This document shows positions 11,308 through 23,359 of a stretch of DNA of 39,580 nucleotides, piece after piece. This DNA is from Actinomycetes bacterium. Lineage in GTDB: Bacteria > Actinomycetota > Acidimicrobiia > Acidimicrobiales > RAAP-2. Each line of letters opens with the position of its first letter. The first letter of the stretch is position 1. The stretch is taken from positions 1 to 39,580 of the forward strand of contig JAJXUK010000018.1 in NCBI GenBank assembly GCA_021782915.1. Direction: 5' to 3'. A program made the translations under genes and the position numbers. The notes beneath the pieces are model-generated. The model searched no databases. It was given only the letters and a program-made list of their open reading frames with translations, and was not told where the DNA came from.

Positions 11308-13599
11308 ATGAGAGGATCCCGTGCGGCCTGGTCGCTTCTCGCCCTGGGACTGGTGACGCTGACACTGCCGGGCGCGTCCTCGGGCGCGGCGTCCGCGCGC
11401 GTGCAGGTGGCCAGCGCGAGCGCGCTGCCGCGCGGCGCGCAGGTGGTGCCCGGATCGATGAACGCGAGCTTCGACCTCGTCCTGGCGCTCCCGCACGACG
11501 CGGCGCTGCGAGGCTTCCTCGCGGACCTCTACGACCCCGCCTCGGCCCAGTACCGTCACTTCCTGAGCCCGAGCCAGTTCGGCCGTCGATTCGGAGCGAC
11601 GTCGGCGACCGTCGACGCCCTGCGGCACTACTTCGCCGGCTTCGGCCTGCACGTGGGCGCGCCGAGCACCGGGCGAATCCTCCTGCACGTCAGCGGGCCG
11701 AGCTCGCGCATCGCGGCGGCCTTCGACACGCCGGTCGAGACGGTGCGCCGCGCGGACGGCACTCGAGCCGTGCAGTTCACGCACGCGGCGACGCTGCCGG
11801 GCGACGTCGCCGCTCTCGTGCGCGCTGTGGCCGGCTTGAGCAGCGTGGCCGCACCGAGAGCACGAATCCTCGCAACCCACGCCGCCGCGCACGCCGGTGC
11901 GCCTGGCGTCTGCCCGTCGGCGGGCAGCTCTAGCTCCAATGGACCGAATGTGCTCGGTGGCTACACCCTGCAGCAGCAGGCTCAGCTCTACGGGCTGAAC
12001 AACGCGTGGGCCAAGGGTGACACGGGCGCCACCCAGACCATCGCCATCTACGAGCTGGGCGTCTATCGCCCCGCTGACGTCGCCGCCTTCGCCAGCTGCT
12101 ACGGGATCACGCCGAAGATCAACGCGATCGCCGTCGACGGCGGGGGCTCCAGCGGCGGCGCCGACGAGGCGACCCTCGACGTCGAAGAGGCCCTCGGGCT
12201 CGCGCCGGGGGCCACGATCGACATCTACGCGGGACCCAACTCGGGAAGCGGACCGACGGACACCTACGCGCGCATCGCCGACGACAACACCGCCTCCATC
12301 GTCACCACCTCGTGGGGCACGTGCGAGGCCGACCCGACGGGCAACCCCTACGCCGAACAGGCGATCTTCGAGCAGATGGCCGCTCAGGGACAGACCGTCT
12401 ACGCATCCTCCGGCGACTCGGGCTCCTCGGACTGCGCCGGGGTCGTGAACAACTCCCTGGCCGTGGACGATCCGGCCTCGCAGCCCTACGTCACCGGCGT
12501 TGGTGGCCTCTCGGTGACCAGCATCAACCCGCTGGTGCAGAGCGTGTGGAACGACGGCATCAACTCCGGCGGCGGAGCGAGCGGTGGCGGGATCTCGACG
12601 CTGTGGTCGCGACCGAGCTGGCAGAACGCACCGGGCATCGACCCGAGCCAGACGATGCGCCTGGTGCCCGACCTGTCCGTCATGGGCGACCCCGGAACCG
12701 GCTTCATCGAGTACTACAACGGCTCCTGGGGCCCGGTGGGCGGCACGTCCATCGGCTCGCCGCTCATGGCTGGGCTGACGGCGGTGGCCGCCCAGGCCTG
12801 CGGCGTGGCCCGACTCGGCTTCCTCAACCCCACGCTGTACGCCATGGCCAACACCGGCTACATCGACGTGACGAGCGGCTCGAACGACCTCTTCGGGGTG
12901 GGCGCCTACAGCGCGGGGCCCGGCTACGACATGGCCTCGGGCCTGGGCAGCCCGAACCCGGCCACGTTCCTCAGCGGGCTGTGCCCGGCCGCGCCGGGCT
13001 CGCTGAGCGTCACGCCCCACGTCACGAACACCCGTCCCACGATCGGCGCTACGGAGCCGACGATCTCGTTGAACGTCACGAGTGCCACCGGCCAACCCCT
13101 CGCCAACACGACCCTCACCATCTCGGCCAGCGTCAGCAGTGGCGTCGCGCTCATCGACGACGACCAGGCCTCGAGGACGTCCAACGGCAACGCCTCCTAC
13201 AGCGTGGCCACGGACGCGAGCGGGGCGCTGAGCTTCAGCGTCTCTTCCTCGAGCCCCGGACCGGTCAAGGTCAGCGTGACCTACCAGGGTGTGAGCATCT
13301 ACGCGACCACGCTGCAGTTCGTGAGCGCCGCCGCGCGCGTGAGCACTCGGGTGCGCGTGGCCTCGCTGGCACCACTGGTGGGTGGCTTCCGGCTGGTGGC
13401 CGCCGTCAGTGGTCCTCGCCCGAGCGCGCTGCAGTACTCGATCAACGCGGGCAGGTCGTGGGCGGGCTTCTCGGCCGTCACGCGCTCCGTGACGGTCACG
13501 CGCCTGGCGCGCGGGCGCACCTACCGCGTGATCGTGCGCGCCGTCGTCGCGGGACAGGCCGGACCGACCTCCGCTGCGGCCGCGGTGACCACGAAGTAG
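11308..13599 (+). CDS. Secreted S53 (sedolisin/kumamolisin-like) serine-carboxyl peptidase
   Basis: 763 residues. Signal peptide at 1-28 (SLLALGLVTLTLPGASSGAA). A pro-kumamolisin activation domain (about 45-180) has YDPASAQYRHFLSPSQFGRRFG. The catalytic domain (about 215-565) has E287 and D291 (DEATLDVEEALGLAPGA), oxyanion D370 (SSGDSGSSDC) and nucleophile S481 in GGTSIGSPLMAG, all four S53 hallmarks. A Ca-site-like end follows (GYDMASGLGSPNP). The last 180 residues form Thr/Ser-rich beta-sandwich modules, the final one like fibronectin III (ALQYSINAGRSWAGF...), possibly for binding substrate or the cell wall. S53 enzymes work at acid pH, outside the cell, and mature by self-cleavage. An adjacent large secreted protein follows. 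Confidence 0.95.
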   Translation: MRGSRAAWSLLALGLVTLTLPGASSGAASARVQVASASALPRGAQVVPGSMNASFDLVLALPHDAALRGFLADLYDPASAQYRHFLSPSQFGRRFGATSATVDALRHYFAGFGLHVGAPSTGRILLHVSGPSSRIAAAFDTPVETVRRADGTRAVQFTHAATLPGDVAALVRAVAGLSSVAAPRARILATHAAAHAGAPGVCPSAGSSSSNGPNVLGGYTLQQQAQLYGLNNAWAKGDTGATQTIAIYELGVYRPADVAAFASCYGITPKINAIAVDGGGSSGGADEATLDVEEALGLAPGATIDIYAGPNSGSGPTDTYARIADDNTASIVTTSWGTCEADPTGNPYAEQAIFEQMAAQGQTVYASSGDSGSSDCAGVVNNSLAVDDPASQPYVTGVGGLSVTSINPLVQSVWNDGINSGGGASGGGISTLWSRPSWQNAPGIDPSQTMRLVPDLSVMGDPGTGFIEYYNGSWGPVGGTSIGSPLMAGLTAVAAQACGVARLGFLNPTLYAMANTGYIDVTSGSNDLFGVGAYSAGPGYDMASGLGSPNPATFLSGLCPAAPGSLSVTPHVTNTRPTIGATEPTISLNVTSATGQPLANTTLTISASVSSGVALIDDDQASRTSNGNASYSVATDASGALSFSVSSSSPGPVKVSVTYQGVSIYATTLQFVSAAARVSTRVRVASLAPLVGGFRLVAAVSGPRPSALQYSINAGRSWAGFSAVTRSVTVTRLARGRTYRVIVRAVVAGQAGPTSAAAAVTTK

Positions 13600-13670: not shown

Positions 13671-16004
13671 GTGCCCCGATCTTCTGCGAGGTTGCGAGTG
13701 CTGAGACGAGTTTGGGTCGCCTTCCTGCTGCTGGCTGGTGTCGCCGTCCCCGCTGCGGCCTCGCACGCGGCGTCGAGCACGAGCACCACGAGCACGACGA
13801 CGAGCACGCTGGGCCCGGGAACCGGCTCGGCCGGGGGCAGCGCCGCGCCCGCGAGCCTGCCCCTCTACCAGTTCACGGACTCCGGAGTTGGCGCGCTGCC
13901 CTGGTCGGCCCAAGCCCTGACGGGTGCTCTCAACAACTCGACGATGCTGGGCGGTCCGCACGCGGCCGCCTCGAGCACGACGGGCGTGCTGGCCTATCGC
14001 ACCGCCAACTCCCAGGTGGCCCTCTACACGCAGCCCCTGAATGGCCTCGCGAGCCCACCCACGAGCACGACGATCCCCTCGAGCACCAACACCGCCTCTT
14101 CGAGCCCCGGCTCGGGCTCGAGCGCGACGGGCACCTCCACGAGTTCGAGCGCGTCCAACCTCGCCAGCTCGGGTGCTCAGTGGCAAGACCTGTCCCTGGG
14201 CATCGACGCGCTGGCGCCGGCGAGCGACCCCGTGCCCTTCTTCGACCCGTGGGGCAACGTCGACGTGCTGTACGTCAGCGCCTCCGGGGACCTAGAGCTG
14301 CTCACGCCGAACGACCCCGTGAGCGCCCTCTGGCTGCACACTCATCGCGGCGTGGCCTGGCGAGCGACGGTCTCGACGGACCTCAGCGCCCTCAGCGGCG
14401 TGAGCGCCGCCGTCGGCTCGCCGAGCGTCGTCGTCTCCGCCGACACCGCCGAGATCGCGCTGCGCGGCACGAACGGCCACGTCGTCACCCTGAGTCTGAG
14501 CTGGGCGCCGAACCAGCCCATCCCCACGCTCGCCCAGCCGGCCCTCGACCTCACGGCGCTCACGCACAGCCCCGGCGTGGCGAGTGATCCAGTGGTCCTC
14601 TCGCCCGGATCTGTCGCCGTGGGCGCGATCACGAGCGCAGGACACCTCGAGATCTACGGGGTCAATCCCTCCACGGGTCTGTGGTACGCCCAGGACTTGA
14701 CCAAGGCGACGTCGACGACCCGGCTGGTCGGCGCGCTGGCCAGTACAGACACGTCCTACAGCGTCGAGGTCGCCGGGCTCAGCCCGACCGGTGCGGTCAT
14801 CCTGTTCTCCGCGCCGCTGAGCACCCTGAGCCTGCCGCCGAGCACCGTGGCGGTCACGACGACGCCCACGACGGCGCCCGTGACGAGCGGCTCCGGGCTG
14901 GGCACGACCAGCACCACTGGTCTCGTGAACTACTCGGCCTGGAGCGCGACCAACGTCACCGCCGCCACGGCCGGCTCGCCACCGCTGTCCGGACGTCTCT
15001 TCCTCGCGTCCTCGAGCAGCGGGCTCAGCATTGCGGGCTCGGCCCTGGGCTGGGGCGACCTCTTCGTCCTGCAAAGCCCCAACGGCTTCACGTCATGGAC
15101 TGACACGGACGTGTCGGTCACCGCCGGCAACGCCGCACGCACCGTCGCCCCCGCGGTCACGGGCCTGCCCCTCAACGGCGGCGTGGCCCTCTTCGCCGCG
15201 GGCATCAGCTCTCCGCCTCCCCAGGGCGTGGGCGTCTACGCCATCCCGTCGAGCAAGTGGACGCGCGCCGTGCAGGACGGCTGGCCGATCCTGAGCGAGA
15301 CGGGTGGCCTGGGCACGATGCAGTCGCCGTGGGTCGGCTTCACCAGCGCGAGCTCGGTGGCCAGCTCACCCGACTACGTGATGGGCCAGAGCATCTACAG
15401 CGGCCACAAGCGCGTCACCTGGCTCTCGTACTGGACCGTGAGCGGCCCGCTGCCGGGCGAGTCCCAAGTCGGCGCCACGTACTACAAGCACGGCTTCGCG
15501 GCGGGCGCCTGGGTCGCGAGCCAGATCGACCAGTACGCGAGCCTCGGCGAGGGCCTCAAACCCGACTGGGTGATCCTGGACCCCGAGGGTTACCCCGACG
15601 CGCACTCGGGTCTGGACGCGCCCAGCGGCTCGAGCACGGCCACACTCAACCTCTACGCCACCTACTGGAGCGCGATGCTCTCGGGCTGGTCCGCGGGGTT
15701 GAACTCCGTAGACCCCTCACTCAAGCCCGGCATCTACGCCACCCAGTCCGAGTACCGCAACTACCACCTGGCCAATCAGGCTCTGCCGGTCTTCATGGCG
15801 ATCGCCTTCGGTGGCGGGGGCCCGATACCGGTGCCGGGAGCCAGCGGGGCGAACGTGCGCGGCTTCATCGCCTTCAACGGCGTCTGCACGCCGACCAGCA
15901 CCCTGGCCACCCAGGAGCAGACCCTGGCCAATGCGCCCTGGGGAGGCCAGTTCAACACGTTGCAGTTCAACGCCGGCGTCTACTGCCCGCCCGCGCCCTT
16001 CTAG
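13671..16004 (+). CDS. Large secreted Ser/Thr-rich protein with GH25-like C-terminal domain
   Basis: 777 residues. Signal peptide at 1-34 (LRRVWVAFLLLAGVAVPAAASHA). Two low-complexity Ser/Thr linkers (about 35-50 and 125-160). The middle (about 165-540) is beta-rich, with repeating segments such as NVDVLYVSASGDLELLT and GHLEIYGVN that resemble propeller-like blades. The C-terminal 190 residues have DWVILDPEGYP, where D637-x-E639 resembles the D-x-E active site of GH25 lysozymes, then GLNSVDPSLKPGIYATQSEY and PVFMAIAFGGG. A GH25/DUF1906-like TIM barrel acting on cell wall is my inference; no exact family is recognised. GTG 13671 is supported by AGGGAG upstream; GTG 13698 is an alternative. Confidence 0.75.
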   Translation: MPRSSARLRVLRRVWVAFLLLAGVAVPAAASHAASSTSTTSTTTSTLGPGTGSAGGSAAPASLPLYQFTDSGVGALPWSAQALTGALNNSTMLGGPHAAASSTTGVLAYRTANSQVALYTQPLNGLASPPTSTTIPSSTNTASSSPGSGSSATGTSTSSSASNLASSGAQWQDLSLGIDALAPASDPVPFFDPWGNVDVLYVSASGDLELLTPNDPVSALWLHTHRGVAWRATVSTDLSALSGVSAAVGSPSVVVSADTAEIALRGTNGHVVTLSLSWAPNQPIPTLAQPALDLTALTHSPGVASDPVVLSPGSVAVGAITSAGHLEIYGVNPSTGLWYAQDLTKATSTTRLVGALASTDTSYSVEVAGLSPTGAVILFSAPLSTLSLPPSTVAVTTTPTTAPVTSGSGLGTTSTTGLVNYSAWSATNVTAATAGSPPLSGRLFLASSSSGLSIAGSALGWGDLFVLQSPNGFTSWTDTDVSVTAGNAARTVAPAVTGLPLNGGVALFAAGISSPPPQGVGVYAIPSSKWTRAVQDGWPILSETGGLGTMQSPWVGFTSASSVASSPDYVMGQSIYSGHKRVTWLSYWTVSGPLPGESQVGATYYKHGFAAGAWVASQIDQYASLGEGLKPDWVILDPEGYPDAHSGLDAPSGSSTATLNLYATYWSAMLSGWSAGLNSVDPSLKPGIYATQSEYRNYHLANQALPVFMAIAFGGGGPIPVPGASGANVRGFIAFNGVCTPTSTLATQEQTLANAPWGGQFNTLQFNAGVYCPPAPF

Positions 16005-16446: not shown

Positions 16447-17187
16447 GTGAGCTGTGCGACCATGACGAGCCTCCTTGAGTCACTGCGCTCGGCCCCGCAC
16501 GAGCGCGCGCTCAGCGACGAGTCCGTGGTGCGGCGCCTGCTCGGGCGGCTCGAGTCCTGGTTGGACTCGACGGGCGAGCCGCTCACGCTGCGCGCGCCGC
16601 GCGAGCTCGCCCACGGACCCGCCTCGGCGCTGGGACGACTGCGGGGCGTAGCAGTACATCAGATGGTGCGCCTGGCCGCAGCGGGCTACGACTGGGACAA
16701 TCCCGCCCGGGACGCTCTCAGCACGTGGCGTGCCGAGAGTGAGGGCGAGCTGACGGTTGAGCTCGGGCGCCTCGACGCCGAGGAGCGCGCGGCACTGCTC
16801 GCCGAGCTCGACGCGCACGCGGTCGTGCTGCGCCGCTCACTGGGACCTATCGCGCCGGGCTGGATGCCCCGAGCGGGCCAGCGCGTGCGCGTCGTGCTGG
16901 GCGGCGGACGCCTGGTACTAGCCGACGTGGTGGACCTCATGCTGGGCGTCGTGGGCGAGCACGCCTCCGTCGCCCTCATCGACGTGACGAGCGCGCCGCT
17001 GGGTCCGGGGGCCGAGGCCCGTCTCGCCTACCACGCGCTGTGTCAGACCCTGCGCACCTCGCACGTCCCGCTCGCCAGTGCGGTGCTCTCCAGCGCGACC
17101 GGTGAGGTGATCCACCGTTACGTGGACGAGGCCCTGTTGGACGAGGCCCTGTCGCAACTGCGTCTGCGCGTAGAGGAGCCCGCGTGA
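16447..17187 (+). CDS. PD-(D/E)XK (RecB nuclease)-like protein lacking the catalytic Lys
   Basis: 246 residues, no signal peptide. The C-terminal half reads like the core of RecB-family nucleases: GQRVRVVLGGGRLVLADVVDLMLG with D163, then VALIDVTSAP at 176-184, where active relatives have (D/E)-x-K but here D179-V-T181. A helix with AYHALCQTLR follows, as in the motif after the catalytic Lys. The loss of Lys suggests an inactive, structural or regulatory relative, or that I have mis-assigned the fold. The N-terminus (1-130) is helical. GTG 16447 has AACAGT 6 nt upstream, a near -10 box. The next gene overlaps by 4 nt (GTGA), so the two products probably act together. Confidence 0.7.
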   Translation: MSCATMTSLLESLRSAPHERALSDESVVRRLLGRLESWLDSTGEPLTLRAPRELAHGPASALGRLRGVAVHQMVRLAAAGYDWDNPARDALSTWRAESEGELTVELGRLDAEERAALLAELDAHAVVLRRSLGPIAPGWMPRAGQRVRVVLGGGRLVLADVVDLMLGVVGEHASVALIDVTSAPLGPGAEARLAYHALCQTLRTSHVPLASAVLSSATGEVIHRYVDEALLDEALSQLRLRVEEPA

Positions 17188-17984
17188 GCGCGCTGACGGT
17201 GGTGCCGATCTACGGCGCGTCGTGGCGCGGGCTGCTCGAAGTGGCGCCCCCGGAGTCGGCGCACCTGGACGACCAGCACCGGCGCCAGTTCGCCGAGCGC
17301 TTCGGGGACCTCGGCACGGCGCTCCCGCAGCGCCTGGACGCGTGGAGCGTGGAACGACCGGCGACGTCCCCCTTCGCCTGGAGCCCACGGCGCGCGCGAC
17401 GCTCGCTCGGCAACGCCGCGCTGCGGCGCCTCGTAGCGGGCTCACCCAGCGTGCGCGAGGCCGTCGAGGACGTGATCACGGACCGGCTGCTGTCAGCCGC
17501 CGCAGGTCTGGCGCGACCCGGGACGCTCGCGCACTGGCTCAGCTCGCTCGCTGCGCCGACGCGCGCCATCGTCATCGGCGAGGCCGCCACGTGGGCGACG
17601 TCTCTGGTCGAGCTGAGCCAGGCGCTCGAGGCACCCTGGCACCCAGCGCCCGCGGACGCCTACTACGCGATAGCGGGGGCACGCACCAGCCTGCGCGCGG
17701 CCCGCGAGATCATCGTGACCGGGCCCACACGCGTCGTCGTGCGCGTGCGGGCCGGCTCGCCCGGGCGCAGCGCCGGCGCGGGCCTGCGAGCCGACCTGGC
17801 CATCGACGCGCTGGCTCATCCGCACGGCGAACTGGCTGGCCGACTCGTGGGAGTCTGGCCGGAGGCCGGCCTCGCCCTGGCCGTGGAGGGCACGCTCGAG
17901 GACGCGCGCGCCGGCGCGCGCCACCTGCTGCGCGCGGCTCGGCGCGCGTGCGCCACCGCGCCACTGAGCGTCGTCGCCGCCTAG
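17184..17984 (+). CDS. Unrecognised protein coupled to the RecB-like gene
   Basis: 266 residues from GTG 17184, overlapping the previous gene by 4 nt. No signal peptide, no Cys-rich or Walker motif that I can find. It is rich in Ala, Arg and Leu and mostly helical, with a more beta-like C-terminal part (TRVVVRVRAGSPGRS, RADLAIDALAHPHGELAGRLVGVWPEAGLALAVEG) that could be a small second nuclease-like or nucleic-acid-binding domain. The pair ends 42 nt before typA, which has its own -10 box. Codon bias matches real genes. Function unknown. Confidence 0.75.
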   Translation: MSALTVVPIYGASWRGLLEVAPPESAHLDDQHRRQFAERFGDLGTALPQRLDAWSVERPATSPFAWSPRRARRSLGNAALRRLVAGSPSVREAVEDVITDRLLSAAAGLARPGTLAHWLSSLAAPTRAIVIGEAATWATSLVELSQALEAPWHPAPADAYYAIAGARTSLRAAREIIVTGPTRVVVRVRAGSPGRSAGAGLRADLAIDALAHPHGELAGRLVGVWPEAGLALAVEGTLEDARAGARHLLRAARRACATAPLSVVAA

Positions 17985-18026: not shown

Positions 18027-19865
18027 ATGCCCGTACGTCACTCCCTGCGCAACGTCGCCATCATCGCCCACGTCGACCATGGCAAGACCACCTTGGTCGA
18101 CGCCATGCTGCGCCAGACCGGCGCCTTCTCCGAGCGCGAGGAGCTCACCGATCGCGTCATGGACTCCGGGGACCTGGAGCGCGAGAAGGGCATCACCATC
18201 CTGGCCAAGAACACCGCGGTCAAGTGGGGCGAGCTGACGATCAACATCATCGACACGCCAGGCCACGCCGACTTCGGCGGCGAGGTCGAGCGGGGCCTGG
18301 AGATGGTCGACGCGGTCATCCTGCTCGTGGACGCGGCCGAGGGACCGCTGCCCCAGACCCGCTTCGTGCTGCGCAAGACCCTGCACAAGCGCCTCCCCGT
18401 GGTCCTGGTCATCAACAAGGTCGACCGGCCCGACGCGCGCATCGCCGAAGTCGTGCACGAGGTCGAGAGCCTCTTCCTCGACCTCGACGCGGACGAGCAC
18501 CAGATCGACTTCCCGATCCTCTACGCGAGCGCGCGCCAGGGCTGGGCGTCGAGCGACCCCGGGGCCACCGGCGGAGACCTGACGCCGCTCTTTCGCACCA
18601 TCGCCGACTACGTTCCGGCGCCGTCCTACGAGGAGGGTCACGGCCTGCAGGCCCTGGTGTGCAACCTGGACGCCTCGCCGTACCTCGGGCGCCTCGCGCT
18701 GTGCCGCGTGATCAACGGCACCCTCGAGCGTGGCCAGCGCGTGGCGTGGTGCCACGTGGACGGCACCCTCGAGCACGCCAAGGTGACCGAGCTGTTCATT
18801 ACGGAGGCCCTGGATCGAGTGCCGGCCCAGAGCGCCGGGCCGGGCGACATCGTCGCCGTCGCGGGCTTTGACGAGATCACCATCGGCGAGACCCTGGCCG
18901 ATCCCGAGAACCCCGAGCCGCTCGAGCCGCTCCACGTCGATGAGCCGAGTTTGTCGATGACCATCGGCATCAACACCTCGCCGCTGGCCGGCACGGAGGG
19001 CCGACTCCTCACCGCGCGCATGGTCAAGGACCGCCTCGATCGCGAACTGGTCGGCAACGTCTCGCTGCGCGTGCTGCCCACCGAGCGTCCCGACGCCTGG
19101 GAGGTGCAGGGTCGCGGCGAGCTGCAGCTGGCGGTGCTGATCGAGACCATGCGCCGCGAGGGCTTCGAGCTGACCGTGGGCAAGCCCCAGGTCGTCACTC
19201 GCCTTCTCGACGGCAAGATCCACGAGCCCGTCGAGCACGTCACGATCGACGCGCCCGAGGAGTTCGTGGGGGCGGTCACCACCCTGCTGGCCACGCGCAA
19301 GGGCACGATGGTCGACATGGTGAACCACGGCACCGGCTGGGTGCGCCTGGAGTGGCGCGTGCCGGCGCGTGGTCTGGTCGGCGTGCGCACGGACTTCATG
19401 ACCGAGACGCGCGGTGCCGGGGTCATGCACTCGATCTCGGACGGCTACGCCCCGTGGTTCGGCGAGATCCGCGCACGGCGCAGCGGCGTGCTCGTGGCCG
19501 ACCGGCGAGGCGTGACGACGGCCAACGCGCTGCTCGACCTGGAAGAGCGCGGCACGCTCTTCGTGGGGCCCGGCGTCGAGGTGTACGAGGGCATGATCGT
19601 GGGCGAGAACGCGCGCAGCGACGAGATGAACGTGAATCCCACCAAGGAGAAGAAGCTCACGAACATGCGCGCGGCGGGCAGCGACAACTTTGAGAAGATC
19701 GCACCACCGACGATCCTCACCCTCGAGCAGGCCCTCGAGTTCATCGCCGACGACGAGGCCGTCGAGGTCACGCCCAAGTCGGTCCGCCTGCGCAAGATGA
19801 CGCTGGACCATGCGATGCGCGCGCGCGAGCGAAAGCGCGCCGAGCGCCCTTCGGTACAGTCGTAG
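18027..19865 (+). CDS. typA: Translational GTPase TypA/BipA
   Basis: 612 residues, normal length. It is a ribosome-associated GTPase of the EF-G/LepA type, involved in 50S assembly and stress growth. G1 AHVDHGKTT (residues 14-22), switch region LEREKGITI, G3 DTPGHADFGGEVER, G4 NKVDRPDAR, G5-like YASARQGW. Domain II and the EF-G-like domains III and V follow (TEGRLLTARMVKDRL, GRGELQLAVLIETMRREGFEL, ARGLVGVRTDFMTETRG), then the BipA-specific C-terminus (NPTKEKKLTNMRAAGSDNFEK, TPKSVRLRKMTLDH). tRNA-Ser(TGA) starts 2 nt after the stop, so both may share a transcript. Confidence 0.98.
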   Translation: MPVRHSLRNVAIIAHVDHGKTTLVDAMLRQTGAFSEREELTDRVMDSGDLEREKGITILAKNTAVKWGELTINIIDTPGHADFGGEVERGLEMVDAVILLVDAAEGPLPQTRFVLRKTLHKRLPVVLVINKVDRPDARIAEVVHEVESLFLDLDADEHQIDFPILYASARQGWASSDPGATGGDLTPLFRTIADYVPAPSYEEGHGLQALVCNLDASPYLGRLALCRVINGTLERGQRVAWCHVDGTLEHAKVTELFITEALDRVPAQSAGPGDIVAVAGFDEITIGETLADPENPEPLEPLHVDEPSLSMTIGINTSPLAGTEGRLLTARMVKDRLDRELVGNVSLRVLPTERPDAWEVQGRGELQLAVLIETMRREGFELTVGKPQVVTRLLDGKIHEPVEHVTIDAPEEFVGAVTTLLATRKGTMVDMVNHGTGWVRLEWRVPARGLVGVRTDFMTETRGAGVMHSISDGYAPWFGEIRARRSGVLVADRRGVTTANALLDLEERGTLFVGPGVEVYEGMIVGENARSDEMNVNPTKEKKLTNMRAAGSDNFEKIAPPTILTLEQALEFIADDEAVEVTPKSVRLRKMTLDHAMRARERKRAERPSVQS

Positions 19866-20013: not shown

Positions 20014-21768
20014 CTACAAGACCTGCACCAGCGTGTAGCCGCTCGTGGTCTGGTTGACCAGCACGCCCACCGTCACGTTCGGGGACACCGCCAGAGAGAG
20101 CGAGGCCATCGCCGAGGGGATGACAATGGTCGCGGACTGGCTGCCGCCAGAGAGCAGGAGCGTCATTGAGCCGTTCGAGGTGCCCGTCGCGGACGTGAAG
20201 GCACTCACCGTGCCCGACAGCTGGACGGTCGGGGCCGTGCTCAGGACGTTGCCCGCACTCGTCTGCGAGGCCGTCACGTTCACCTGCTCGCTCGTGGACA
20301 GGGCGAGGCTGAGCAGACTGCTCGGCACGACGAAGATCACCGTGGCGCCGGTCGAGGGCTGAACCACGAGCGAACCGGTCGAGGTGGACGTCGCCGCCTG
20401 AAACGTCACCACCGTGCCGGACAGCTGGAGCGTGCTCGGCGTTGCACCGGTGCTGGTCGAGCCGCCGCCGTCACCCTCGGGCTGCTGAATCTTGATGTCC
20501 ACCAGCGTCAGGCAGATGGTGCCGGGAGAGCTCGTCGAGGTGCAGACACTCTCCATGGCGCGCACGTGCACTCGTGAGCCTGGCTGCGCCGGCGCCGCCT
20601 CGCTCTGCATCGAGGGCGGGATGATCACGCTCTGACTCGAGGCCTGGGAGTTGTCGCCCTGGTTCGTCTGAATGACGAGCGTGGTGCCGTTGTTCGAGGA
20701 GACCGTGCCCTCGATCTCAACGACGCCCGACTGTCCACCGTCACCCTCCGCGGGGTGGATGGAGACGAGAGTCGTCGTCGCCACGCCGTTGAGCGAGACG
20801 ATCGTCGCCTCGGCGTGCACGTAGGTGTTCAGCTGCACCGCTGGGGGCACATTCACCGTCGAGGGCACGCTCATCGTGACCACCGAGCCGCCCTCACCGG
20901 GCTGGACCGAGATGGTGCCCAGGGCCGTGCCCGATGCCGGCGTCATCGCCGTGACCAGACCCTCGACGTCAAAGACCGCGTCCTCAGAGGGCTGACTCAC
21001 GCCCTGGGCACCGCCCGTGCCGTCGGTCGAGATCGTCACCAACGAGAAGCTCGACGTGCTCGGGTTGTAGTCGACGAGCAGCTCCACCTGCTGGCCGGTG
21101 CTCAGCGTGCTCGGCAGCATGATGGAGCTCGGCACGATCACCGTGATCGTCTCACCGCTCTCCGTCGTGACCGTCAGCGAGCCCGACGCGGGAGTGCCCA
21201 GCGTGCCCTGCAGGGTGATGAGCGCCGTCGAGCCCGAGGGGATCACGGTGATCTCATCGAGGCCCTGGGCGCCCAGGCCGGCGTTCACGTTGACGATCGT
21301 GCCGGTGCCCGGATTCGAGCTCGAGCCCGAGCTGTCGTGCGCGTGGCGCGCGTGGGCCGCGCGAGTCAGTGTGACCACGCTGCCGCCGCCCGACACCGAC
21401 ATCGACGTGGGGCTCGAGGACACCACGACGGCGCGGAAGTGCGCCCGGTTCGTGTGGCGACCCGTGCTCATGGACAGAACGTGGTCGGTCCCGTCGGCCA
21501 GGTGCGTGACGCGCGCGCGAACCAGCGTTCCCAGACGGGTCCGGGCGGCCGTGGCGGCGCTGACGCGCAGGGTGACCAGGTGAGCGTGGCTGGCCAGGAC
21601 CAGGGTGTCGCGCGAGGTGTTGGTGGCAACGACAGCGCCGCTCACCGAACTCGCTCGCACGCTGGTGTGGGACTGTGCGCTGGCTCCGGCCAGTCCGGCC
21701 AGCGGTCCGGCCAGCAGCACGAGGGCGCCGGCTACGGCGCCGGCTCGACTCATTCGGCTAGGAAACAT
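20014..21768 (-). CDS. Secreted protein of tandem beta-rich modules (DUF5666-like)
   Basis: 584 residues. Signal peptide at 1-32 (GALVLLAGPLAGLAGASAQS). The rest is built of divergent repeats of about 65-80 residues, clearest at 185-249, 265-337, 349-428, 447-511 and 516-583. Each opens with a '[IV]xGTV'-like strand, has a Thr/Ser hairpin, then a 'VVPSS/IIPPS' strand, and ends with a V-x-V strand. This resembles DUF5666 beta-barrel repeats, by pattern only. One Cys pair (CTSTSSPGTIC, 409-419) could form a disulfide loop. ATG 21768 is chosen for GGAAGGAG 9 nt upstream and the signal peptide directly after; the open frame upstream is leader. It may be a surface or matrix protein. Confidence 0.85.
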   Translation of the reverse strand: MFPSRMSRAGAVAGALVLLAGPLAGLAGASAQSHTSVRASSVSGAVVATNTSRDTLVLASHAHLVTLRVSAATAARTRLGTLVRARVTHLADGTDHVLSMSTGRHTNRAHFRAVVVSSSPTSMSVSGGGSVVTLTRAAHARHAHDSSGSSSNPGTGTIVNVNAGLGAQGLDEITVIPSGSTALITLQGTLGTPASGSLTVTTESGETITVIVPSSIMLPSTLSTGQQVELLVDYNPSTSSFSLVTISTDGTGGAQGVSQPSEDAVFDVEGLVTAMTPASGTALGTISVQPGEGGSVVTMSVPSTVNVPPAVQLNTYVHAEATIVSLNGVATTTLVSIHPAEGDGGQSGVVEIEGTVSSNNGTTLVIQTNQGDNSQASSQSVIIPPSMQSEAAPAQPGSRVHVRAMESVCTSTSSPGTICLTLVDIKIQQPEGDGGGSTSTGATPSTLQLSGTVVTFQAATSTSTGSLVVQPSTGATVIFVVPSSLLSLALSTSEQVNVTASQTSAGNVLSTAPTVQLSGTVSAFTSATGTSNGSMTLLLSGGSQSATIVIPSAMASLSLAVSPNVTVGVLVNQTTSGYTLVQVL

Positions 21769-21814
21769 CGTTGTGGACTCCTTCCAGTGGGCGTCGTCCG
21801 CCCGACTGAAACCC

Positions 21815-21820
21815 ACGCTA
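21815..21820 (-). promoter_or_regulatory. Predicted -10 box (TAGCGT)
   Basis: TAGCGT on the minus strand gives a leader of about 40 nt that includes GGAAGGAG before ATG 21768. Confidence 0.4.
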
Positions 21821-21826
21821 CGAAGC

Positions 21827-21840
21827 GAGCCTGTGGGCTC
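21827..21840. promoter_or_regulatory. Small inverted repeat upstream of the repeat-protein promoter
   Basis: GAGCC-TGTG-GGCTC, 5-bp arms around 4 nt, lies 6 nt upstream of the -10 box. Its place in the promoter would suit an operator, but arms this short occur by chance in GC-rich DNA. Confidence 0.25.
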
Positions 21841-21991
21841 GTCCAAGGTCACCTGCGAGTTTCCTGTGAATCGCGACAACGCCATCACACGCGGCCCACG
21901 ACCACCCGGTGCGGCACAGGCCACGAGTGCACTAGGACGGGGGTGTGCCGGTGAGCCGCGGCGCGCTCGCACGCCGCACGGAAGATGAGCG

Positions 21992-23359
21992 ATGAGGCTG
22001 CATCGCGCAATGCCGGTGCGCCAGCTGGCCGAGGCGACTCCGGCCCGACGAGATCGGGTGATCGACGGCCTGCGTGCCGGGAGCCTGAGCGTCGTGGTGA
22101 TCGGCCACTGCGCGATGGCCCTCGTGTACTGGCACCGAGGCGTCCCGGAGCTCGGCAACGTTCTGGCCGCGCACCGCTCCGCCCAGCTCGCGACCTGGGT
22201 GCTGCAGGTGGTGCCGCTCTTCTTCGTCGCCGGCGGGGCGTCCAACGCGCTCAGCTGGCGCTCGAGGCGTGCGCAGGGCTACGCCGCCTGGCTGTGGTCG
22301 CGCTCGGCGCGCCTGCTGCGCCCGGTGCTGGTCTATCTCGCTCTCACGGCGCCGATCGCGTGGCTGGTGGCTCGCCTCGTGCCGAACGCCGTGAGCGCGC
22401 CGCTGCTGGCGCTCAGCACCCAGCTGCTCTGGTTCCTCGGCGCCTACCTCGTGGTCACCGCCCTGGGTCCTCTGCTGCTGCGCGCCCACGACCGAGCGCC
22501 GTGGCTCAGCGTTCTCGGCCTCGGTGCGAGCAGCGTGGTCGTGGACGTGATCCGCTTTGGCGGCGGCGTGCGCATCGTGGGCGTGCTCAACTTCGTCACC
22601 GTGTGGGCCCTGTGCGCGCAGCTGGGCGTGTGCTACGTCGACCGGCTCATCCCGAGTCGTCGGGCCGGCATCCTGGCCCTCGTCGGCGTCGGCCTGAACG
22701 CCCTCGTGGTCACGCGGTTTCACTACCCGCTGTCGATGGTGGGCATGCCGGGCGATCGATTCTCCAACGTGTCCCCGCCCACGACGGTGCTGATGATCCT
22801 CGGCGTCGTCGAGGCTCTCGCGGCGATCGCGCTGAGAGAGCCACTGGGCCGCCTGATGACTCGCGTGGGCGTGTGGCGCTACGTGGTCGCGGTGAACGCG
22901 TCGGCGATGACGCTGTACCTGTGGCACCTGCCCGTGCTGATCGTCCTGTACGTCCTCGAGCACGCCAGCGGGCTCACCCTGCCCACGTCTCGCTCGGGCG
23001 GGCTCGTCGTCATGGGCCCGCACTACCCGTGGCTGTGGCCGGTGCACTTCGTGCTCTTCGCGCTCGGGGTCGTCGGCGTGGTGAGCGTCCTGTGGGTGCT
23101 CGAGAGCGCTCCCCTGGTGTTCTGGGACCGTGCGTCGCGCCTCGCGCCGCTGCCGGGAGGCCTGGCGAGTGCGCTCGGGGCCCTGGGCGTGATCGTCTGC
23201 GGCACGGGGCTCCTGGTCCTGGCCGGTGTCGGCCTCGCGGGATTTCCCACTCGCGTCGTGCACTTCAGCGGCCTGAGCCTGAGCAGTGGCCTCGGCACGG
23301 GTCTCACCCTCGTCGGCGCGCTGGGCGTGCGCGCGGCCACCGCGCCGCGCCGGCTCTAG
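21992..23359 (+). CDS. Acyltransferase family 3 membrane protein
   Basis: 455 residues with about ten membrane helices. It opens with RRDRVIDGLRAGSLSVVVIGHCAMAL, the acyltransferase-3 signature (D-x-LRA ... GH with the catalytic His). A second conserved region is VPLFFVAGGASNALSWRSR, and MTLYLWHLPVLIVLY carries the late His of the family. Members move acyl groups from the cytosol to surface sugars, lipids or peptidoglycan. There is no SGNH domain, so this is the membrane part alone. The start is ATG 21992, with GGAAG about 7 nt upstream. It ends on CTAG shared with the stop of the TetR gene opposite. Confidence 0.9.
   Translation: MRLHRAMPVRQLAEATPARRDRVIDGLRAGSLSVVVIGHCAMALVYWHRGVPELGNVLAAHRSAQLATWVLQVVPLFFVAGGASNALSWRSRRAQGYAAWLWSRSARLLRPVLVYLALTAPIAWLVARLVPNAVSAPLLALSTQLLWFLGAYLVVTALGPLLLRAHDRAPWLSVLGLGASSVVVDVIRFGGGVRIVGVLNFVTVWALCAQLGVCYVDRLIPSRRAGILALVGVGLNALVVTRFHYPLSMVGMPGDRFSNVSPPTTVLMILGVVEALAAIALREPLGRLMTRVGVWRYVVAVNASAMTLYLWHLPVLIVLYVLEHASGLTLPTSRSGGLVVMGPHYPWLWPVHFVLFALGVVGVVSVLWVLESAPLVFWDRASRLAPLPGGLASALGALGVIVCGTGLLVLAGVGLAGFPTRVVHFSGLSLSSGLGTGLTLVGALGVRAATAPRRL

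Follow-up and report, generated by a model that had tools for sequence, protein, structure and literature searches.

A maintained pair of probably inactive RecB/Cas4-type nuclease paralogues beside typA in a genus of Acidimicrobiales

PD-(D/E)XK enzymes require an acidic pair that binds metal and usually also a lysine, and dead paralogues are known among them. RecC of RecBCD is such a case, its nuclease domain being dead and its paralogous partner a live enzyme. Pfam family PF12705 (PDDEXK_1) describes proteins of the RecB/Cas4/Dna2/AddB type; NucS belongs to a different Pfam family, is active and does not form a tandem pair. This actinobacterial mismatch nuclease is named together with RecB in one article (PMC5290159). 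According to a review (PMC8998825), mL65 and mL37 are repurposed endonucleases that form a pseudo-dimer on domain III of the large ribosomal subunit.

We compared these systems with two genes, P1 and P2, found in the window, that is, in the whole stretch of 39,580 nucleotides that was analyzed. P1 and P2 belong to two paralogous lineages, here termed X and Y.

16447 to 17187, plus strand: P1, 246 aa, X-lineage predicted pseudonuclease with a RecB/Cas4-type PD-(D/E)XK fold
17184 to 17984, plus strand: P2, 266 aa, Y-lineage predicted pseudonuclease and paralogue of P1
17184 to 17187, plus strand: 4-nt overlap of the P1 stop and the P2 start, likely reflecting translational coupling
18027 to 19865, plus strand: typA (bipA), identified by Pfam, 42 nt 3′ of P2 and on the same strand

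P1 and P2 share fold and motif order with PF12705 proteins, and their homology to that family is traced through single-copy relatives that score above its cut-off. In contrast to PF12705 members, however, the lysine, the tyrosine and the four cysteines are missing from both, the motif-III aspartate is missing from P2 as well, and neither protein scores against the model. ACE1, an Argonaute-associated Cas4-family protein (PDB 9iab/9iac), ranks with the nearest stand-alone folds for each of the two models, but no Argonaute occurs among the annotated neighbors of the pair, and the site appears inactive in P1 and P2. RecC follows a like logic, with an inactive paralogue beside its partner, and RecC chains appear low in the structure list of P2 (Z 5.3); P1 and P2 differ in having no helicase domains and in that both members appear to be dead. 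The mL37-mL65 pair of the animal mitoribosome, described in that review as a dimer of probably repurposed endonucleases, gives weak structural matches to P1 and P2, but it belongs to a eukaryotic organelle, and the three genus genomes with a 23S rRNA match over the whole model show no reduction of this rRNA. The open-licence PMC literature yielded no description of such a pair or of nuclease-fold pseudoenzymes of this sort, in line with the proposal of the first-pass annotation that the locus is a candidate for an undescribed function. What is new here is a bacterial pair that is doubly dead, coupled or fused, linked to typA and of traceable intact ancestry.

The two overlapping ORFs and the residues D163...D179-x-T181 in P1 are present as first annotated; an alternative P1 start is possible at the ATG at 16462. 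The P1-P2 genes and typA are likely carried on the same transcript. Scans of P1 and P2 against Pfam, NCBIfam, PADLOC and PHROG returned nothing usable, and PF12705 was absent from their Pfam matches at E values up to 10. FeS_assembly_P was discarded as a match for P2 (12.8 bits against a cut-off of 23.5). Searches of the PDB with P1 and P2 sequence profiles found no relative; two matches of the P1 profile to Rop (E 0.4-0.9) were discarded. Elsewhere in the window, positions 13671-16004 hold a large Ser/Thr-rich ORF without a Pfam match; 51 of 63 genus loci have a relative of it upstream of P1 and P2. Before this ORF, at 11308-13599, lies another with a pro-kumamolisin activation domain. Beyond typA, a 743-aa Ser/Thr/Val-rich protein without a Pfam match is encoded on the opposite strand (20014-22245).

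AlphaFold2 models built from genus alignments of 62 P1 and 64 P2 sequences (the window plus one of two overlapping collections of loci, and hence free of duplicates between collections) reached mean pLDDT values of 91.2 and 94.4, respectively. In the P1 model, D163 lies on the strand 156-166, D179 and T181 lie on the next strand (176-181), and a helix follows (189-204), which is the arrangement of RecB-type nucleases. Foldseek matched the P1 model to ACE1, Cas4, Dna2 and AddAB, and VIA-align gave Z 11.7 for the AdnAB nuclease domain (rmsd 4.1, 191 aligned residues), 10.7 for MGME1 and 10.6 for Dna2. A separate search with the P2 model matched AdnAB, Dna2 and ACE1 more weakly, with no Foldseek hit at E ≤0.001; its best VIA-align match was ACE1 (Z 8.8, rmsd 4.6, 192 aligned), a value subject to the aligner's own caution that Z near 8 can reflect a common arrangement. 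We accept the nuclease fold for P2 despite this modest score, since nucleases of the same fold head its list and the sequence profiles concur. Both proteins are confidently predicted to carry a Cas4/RecB-type PD-(D/E)XK core, P1 more strongly than P2, and the RecB-nuclease-like fold with a lost lysine that was first proposed for P1 is borne out by the models.

An iterated profile seeded with P1 retrieved the P2 family, and the converse search retrieved P1. P2, which had been taken for an unrecognized partner, is instead the sister copy of P1 and a second, apparently dead nuclease with the same kind of fold. In other families of the order, loci carry one gene of the P1/P2 type, which we call the single-copy relative. 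Comparison by hhalign, in which each group included one pair from family f9 (L030), joined the P1 family to the single-copy relatives at E 2.5e-37, the P2 family to them at 1.5e-13, and the P1 and P2 families to each other at 2.5e-6. The motif-I histidine, two aspartates, lysine, tyrosine and four cysteines were all present in 35 of 35 single-copy rows scoring at least 300 bits, a tally that contains duplicates because the two loci collections overlap. Seven of the eight single-copy or X relatives scanned exceeded the PF12705 cut-off, and L023 fell short of it (19.3 against 22 bits). Judging from these motifs, the single-copy relatives probably cut nucleic acid, and their four cysteines, a trait of the Cas4/AddB-like branch, presumably bind an Fe-S cluster. 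Their recurrent neighbors (an acyltransferase, an epimerase and an enoyl-CoA hydratase) offered no clue to function.

Adjacent gene pairs occur in families f9, f20, f23, f27, f40 and f43, with an intact D/E-x-K in the upstream copy and none in the downstream copy, which sometimes retains the four cysteines. In a quick-search tree of 95 proteins, the upstream copies and P1 formed one clade (X; 26 rows, SH-aLRT 98) and the downstream copies and P2 another (Y; 24 rows, SH-aLRT 99); the single-copy group occupied one side of a branch with low support (18). The tree fits an origin of X and Y by one tandem duplication. None of 63 distinct Y sequences holds both D/E and K at motif III. Among 148 sampled genomes, the single-copy gene was found in 68, the pair in 23, both in none and neither in 57 (Fisher 1.9e-7, uncorrected for relatedness). 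These counts rest on scores, with part of the matches read as sequence: single-copy calls used a chosen limit of 300 bits and excluded G044, an X in the tree, and pair calls comprised 19 genomes that reached a chosen Y limit of 160 bits together with four that fell short of it, two of them tandem and two fused. Since families f23, f27 and f40 hold both states, our data suggest that the pair replaces the single gene. One genome, G182, carries an X-Y pair together with a degraded single-copy relative (L121:895-1950) in which the motif-II aspartate is glycine and the lysine is arginine, as if the pair had taken the place of the single-copy gene.

In the genus of the window, the D...(D/E)-x-K set is missing from both proteins. 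P1 reads D...D-x-T, with T181 replacing the catalytic lysine and H196 the tyrosine, and D163, D179, T181 and H196 are identical in all 62 aligned genus copies. P2 has R187-x-R189 where D-x-K is expected, both arginines being present in 64 of 64 aligned copies; a genus member outside the alignments (L116) has C-x-R, and other genera differ as well, so that R-x-R is not universal. No conserved cysteine is left in either alignment (62 and 64 rows), the most cysteine-rich column holding cysteine in 11 of 62 P1 rows and 16 of 64 P2 rows. Four of the five active-site equivalents of P1 are among its 11 invariant columns of 246 (p 1e-5), and the fifth, the motif-I histidine, is variable. A threonine fixed in 62 of 62 genus copies where 35 of 35 single-copy relatives have lysine reflects neither chance nor a sequence error. 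The question first raised about Thr181, whether it is always present in homologues, thus has a divided answer: the residue is constant and genuine within the genus, but homologues elsewhere have the lysine. The first-pass view that P1 is an inactive nuclease is probably correct.

The unusual constraint on the former active site of P1 would also fit an altered catalytic activity, in which P1 still cuts through a modified site (D163, D179, H196 and T181) or with an arginine of P2 substituting for the lysine. We regard this as improbable, because the tyrosine and the four cysteines are gone as well and because other genera of the family lost an aspartate instead (S-x-K, A-x-K) or both residues (R-x-R). 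The Y profile was matched in 93 of 99 genomes, covering all 21 sampled genera of the family of the window. Outside the genus, X copies kept the catalytic set in 7 of 40 cases (genera g278, g281 and g285) and lost it variously in the other 33 (for example S-x-K, A-x-K, R-x-R, G-x-S and E-x-T). On a 49-row tree, whose outgroup is not one clade, some of whose forks are open and whose labels for typA and activity were assigned manually, the activity state requires five changes. Our comparison indicates that catalysis was lost several times in the wider family. Since active-site positions drift across the family, there is no family-wide new site. All 40 X copies outside the genus, even the seven with the catalytic set, lack some or all of the four cysteines, which in this family were therefore lost before catalysis or independently of it. 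Other nucleases occur in the genus genomes: a separate PF12705 protein, mostly of about 265 aa, has the full motif set in the 9 copies read, and an ORF of about 1,120 aa that also matches PF12705 is usually present, its length suggesting a putative helicase-nuclease.

Of 37 genus genomes, 36 contain P1 and 35 contain P2. The absences look like assembly gaps: in G002, which lacks both, typA begins 69 bases into its contig, and in G022, which lacks P2, there is no full typA match either. The 63 genus loci include 5 records titled Acidobacteria or Acidobacteriota, the others being titled Acidimicrobiaceae, Acidimicrobiales or actinobacteria. For the 25 closest pairs listed for each gene, duplicate loci included, dN/dS (NG86) was 0.13-0.28 for P1 and 0.07-0.25 for P2, which shows both genes to be under purifying selection. 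Coupling of the pair, as first described in the window, recurs across the genus: when P2 is read from its nearest possible start, it overlaps P1 by 4 nt in 56 of 61 loci. Distances among P1 copies correlated with those among P2 copies at 0.92, and at 0.77 given the typA distances (Mantel p 0.0005, 50 loci). Furthermore, X and Y are joined in one ORF in two genomes of family f39 (821 and 864 aa; L119:2519-5110 and L120:3703-6165) and in two of genus g293 (746 and 868 aa; L180:1629-3866 and L201:1036-3639), none of these fused ORFs having an intact catalytic motif. Overlap, correlated distances and fusions together support an association of P1 with P2. One MAG carries two similar P1-P2 pairs on separate contigs (L051 and L052; JAJYGN010000100.1 and JAJYGN010000115.1), perhaps because two strains were binned together.

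A decayed immunity unit, which the first-pass annotation had entertained, or a set of pseudogenes would account for the lost catalytic residues, and some intact relatives weakly match the DruK and Cas4 defense models. The near-universal presence of the pair in the genus, its kept place, its open frames, its fixed residues and dN/dS values well below 1 nevertheless make this reading very improbable, and neither P1 nor P2 has a PADLOC match at E values up to 0.1 or a PHROG match. The sequence comparisons thus indicate a maintained pair rather than decay.

The genomic context of the pair was then compared across loci. A search located typA downstream in 54 of the 63 genus loci, and 49 of the 54 have the first start codon that it could use 33-50 nt beyond P2. 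Among the nine misses, L051 and L056 show the first typA codons on reading, four loci extend no more than 40 nt beyond P2, and L097 and L108 belong with a subclade that carries an insert of about 2.3 kb (by eye, a CoA-transferase-like gene and a second gene) between P2 and typA, P1 and P2 remaining adjacent. In L079, typA is absent from the 333 nt after P2, which likely makes this locus a real exception. Of 41 loci from other genera of the family, 24 have the conserved N-terminal motif of typA beginning 33-138 nt beyond Y. X is present in 23 of these 24 and is dead in all 23; among loci without typA, X is intact in 7 of 17. The fused locus L180 is uninformative about typA, since its contig ends just after the fused gene. 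The 28 rows of the 49-row tree in which X-Y lies beside typA are without exception dead and are nearly monophyletic (2 changes), and they adjoin an intact group (g281 and g285) that has no typA in the loci read. Because typA linkage arose only once or twice, its coincidence with inactivation is suggestive only. Pairs of other families do not lie beside typA in any of the loci read. Five of 63 genus loci have an lhr-type helicase gene in divergent orientation beside X, an arrangement shared by many other genera, g281 with its intact X among them (lhr-bearing loci: L068, L092, L093, L098, L104, L038, L040, L115, L133, L114 and many of L166-L196); lhr was possibly a neighbor of the pair before typA.

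These contexts bear on two further readings of what the pair does. As a DNA-repair helper, the heterodimer would assist a helicase (Lhr or some other) by binding single strands or the ends of DNA without catalysis of its own, much as the dead nuclease domain of RecC does in RecBCD. The nearest folds are DNA nucleases, many of them inside helicase complexes, X relatives with intact sites exist, and the divergent lhr stands beside X-Y in several genus loci and many genera of the family, some of them with an intact X. We consider this role possible though doubtful, given that lhr is found in so few genus loci, that another gene stands upstream in 51 of 63, that no operon with a helicase was seen and that the constant downstream neighbor in the clade of the window is typA.

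That neighbor points instead to the ribosome, where the heterodimer would bind 23S rRNA or a 50S precursor and work with TypA, convergently with mL37-mL65. The frequency of typA downstream of the pair within and beyond the genus, and the dead state of X in every typA-adjacent row of the tree, fit such a role, and both models match chains of the mammalian mitoribosome (Z 4.3-5.9), which we take to be mL37 and mL65. The mL65-mL37 pseudo-dimer, as set out in the review (PMC8998825), supplies a precedent. These matches, however, rank far below those to nucleases and could follow from the shared fold, the insert separates pair and typA in one subclade, L079 has no nearby typA, and pairs in other families lie away from it in the loci read. 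In addition, 23S rRNA matches cover model positions 1-2925 in three genus genomes, with a partial match in a fourth and none in 17 of the 21 searched; the three whole-model matches rule out compensation for a missing rRNA domain and thereby remove the simplest version of the idea. We judge a ribosomal role unlikely, and a shade more unlikely still its specific form, in which the pair is the bacterial counterpart of mL37-mL65, two retired nucleases in a typA operon serving 50S assembly or translation under stress.

Our preferred explanation, to which we assign a probability of roughly 60%, is that P1 and P2, expressed with typA, form a heterodimer of pseudonucleases that binds nucleic acid without catalysis. 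The comparisons above show that the two proteins are homologous, that their predicted folds agree, that catalytic residues are gone and that both genes are under selection, inherited together and fused in some lineages; from these we infer the dimer, its binding of nucleic acid and its co-transcription with typA. Sequences and tree support the view that the ancestor of both proteins was one Cas4/RecB-type PD-(D/E)XK nuclease with four cysteines, presumably for an Fe-S cluster, and that its tandem duplication gave rise to upstream X and downstream Y. On this view, the catalytic residues disappeared early from Y; in X they survived in several families, but in the family of the window they were lost more than once. 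In that family the Fe-S cluster was probably lost before catalysis, the cysteines being mostly gone even from catalytically intact copies. In the clade of the window, the pair sits directly upstream of typA. P1 and P2 may bind to one another, as expected if their ancestor was a homodimer, and may hold nucleic acid without cutting it, with the fixed D163, D179, T181 and H196 in the old cleft of P1 and a cleft in P2 that would have turned basic through R187-x-R189. Made together with TypA, the dimer could act as a scaffold or a sensor. By our own estimate, DNA, the ancestral substrate, is somewhat more likely to be the target than rRNA or a 50S precursor; DNA would agree with the ancestry and with lhr, and rRNA with typA and with the precedent of mL37-mL65.

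These proteins preserve an unusually complete series that leads from an intact single nuclease to an intact-plus-dead pair, then to repeated death of the second copy and to fusions, and finally to a fixed, doubly dead pair beside the ribosome-linked gene typA. This series makes it testable why a cell retains a pair of dead enzymes and whether evolution has turned nuclease folds into scaffolds for nucleic acids time and again. Should the pair prove to be a counterpart of mL37-mL65, free-living bacteria would have evolved the same solution independently, and the intact nuclease would survive in their present-day relatives.
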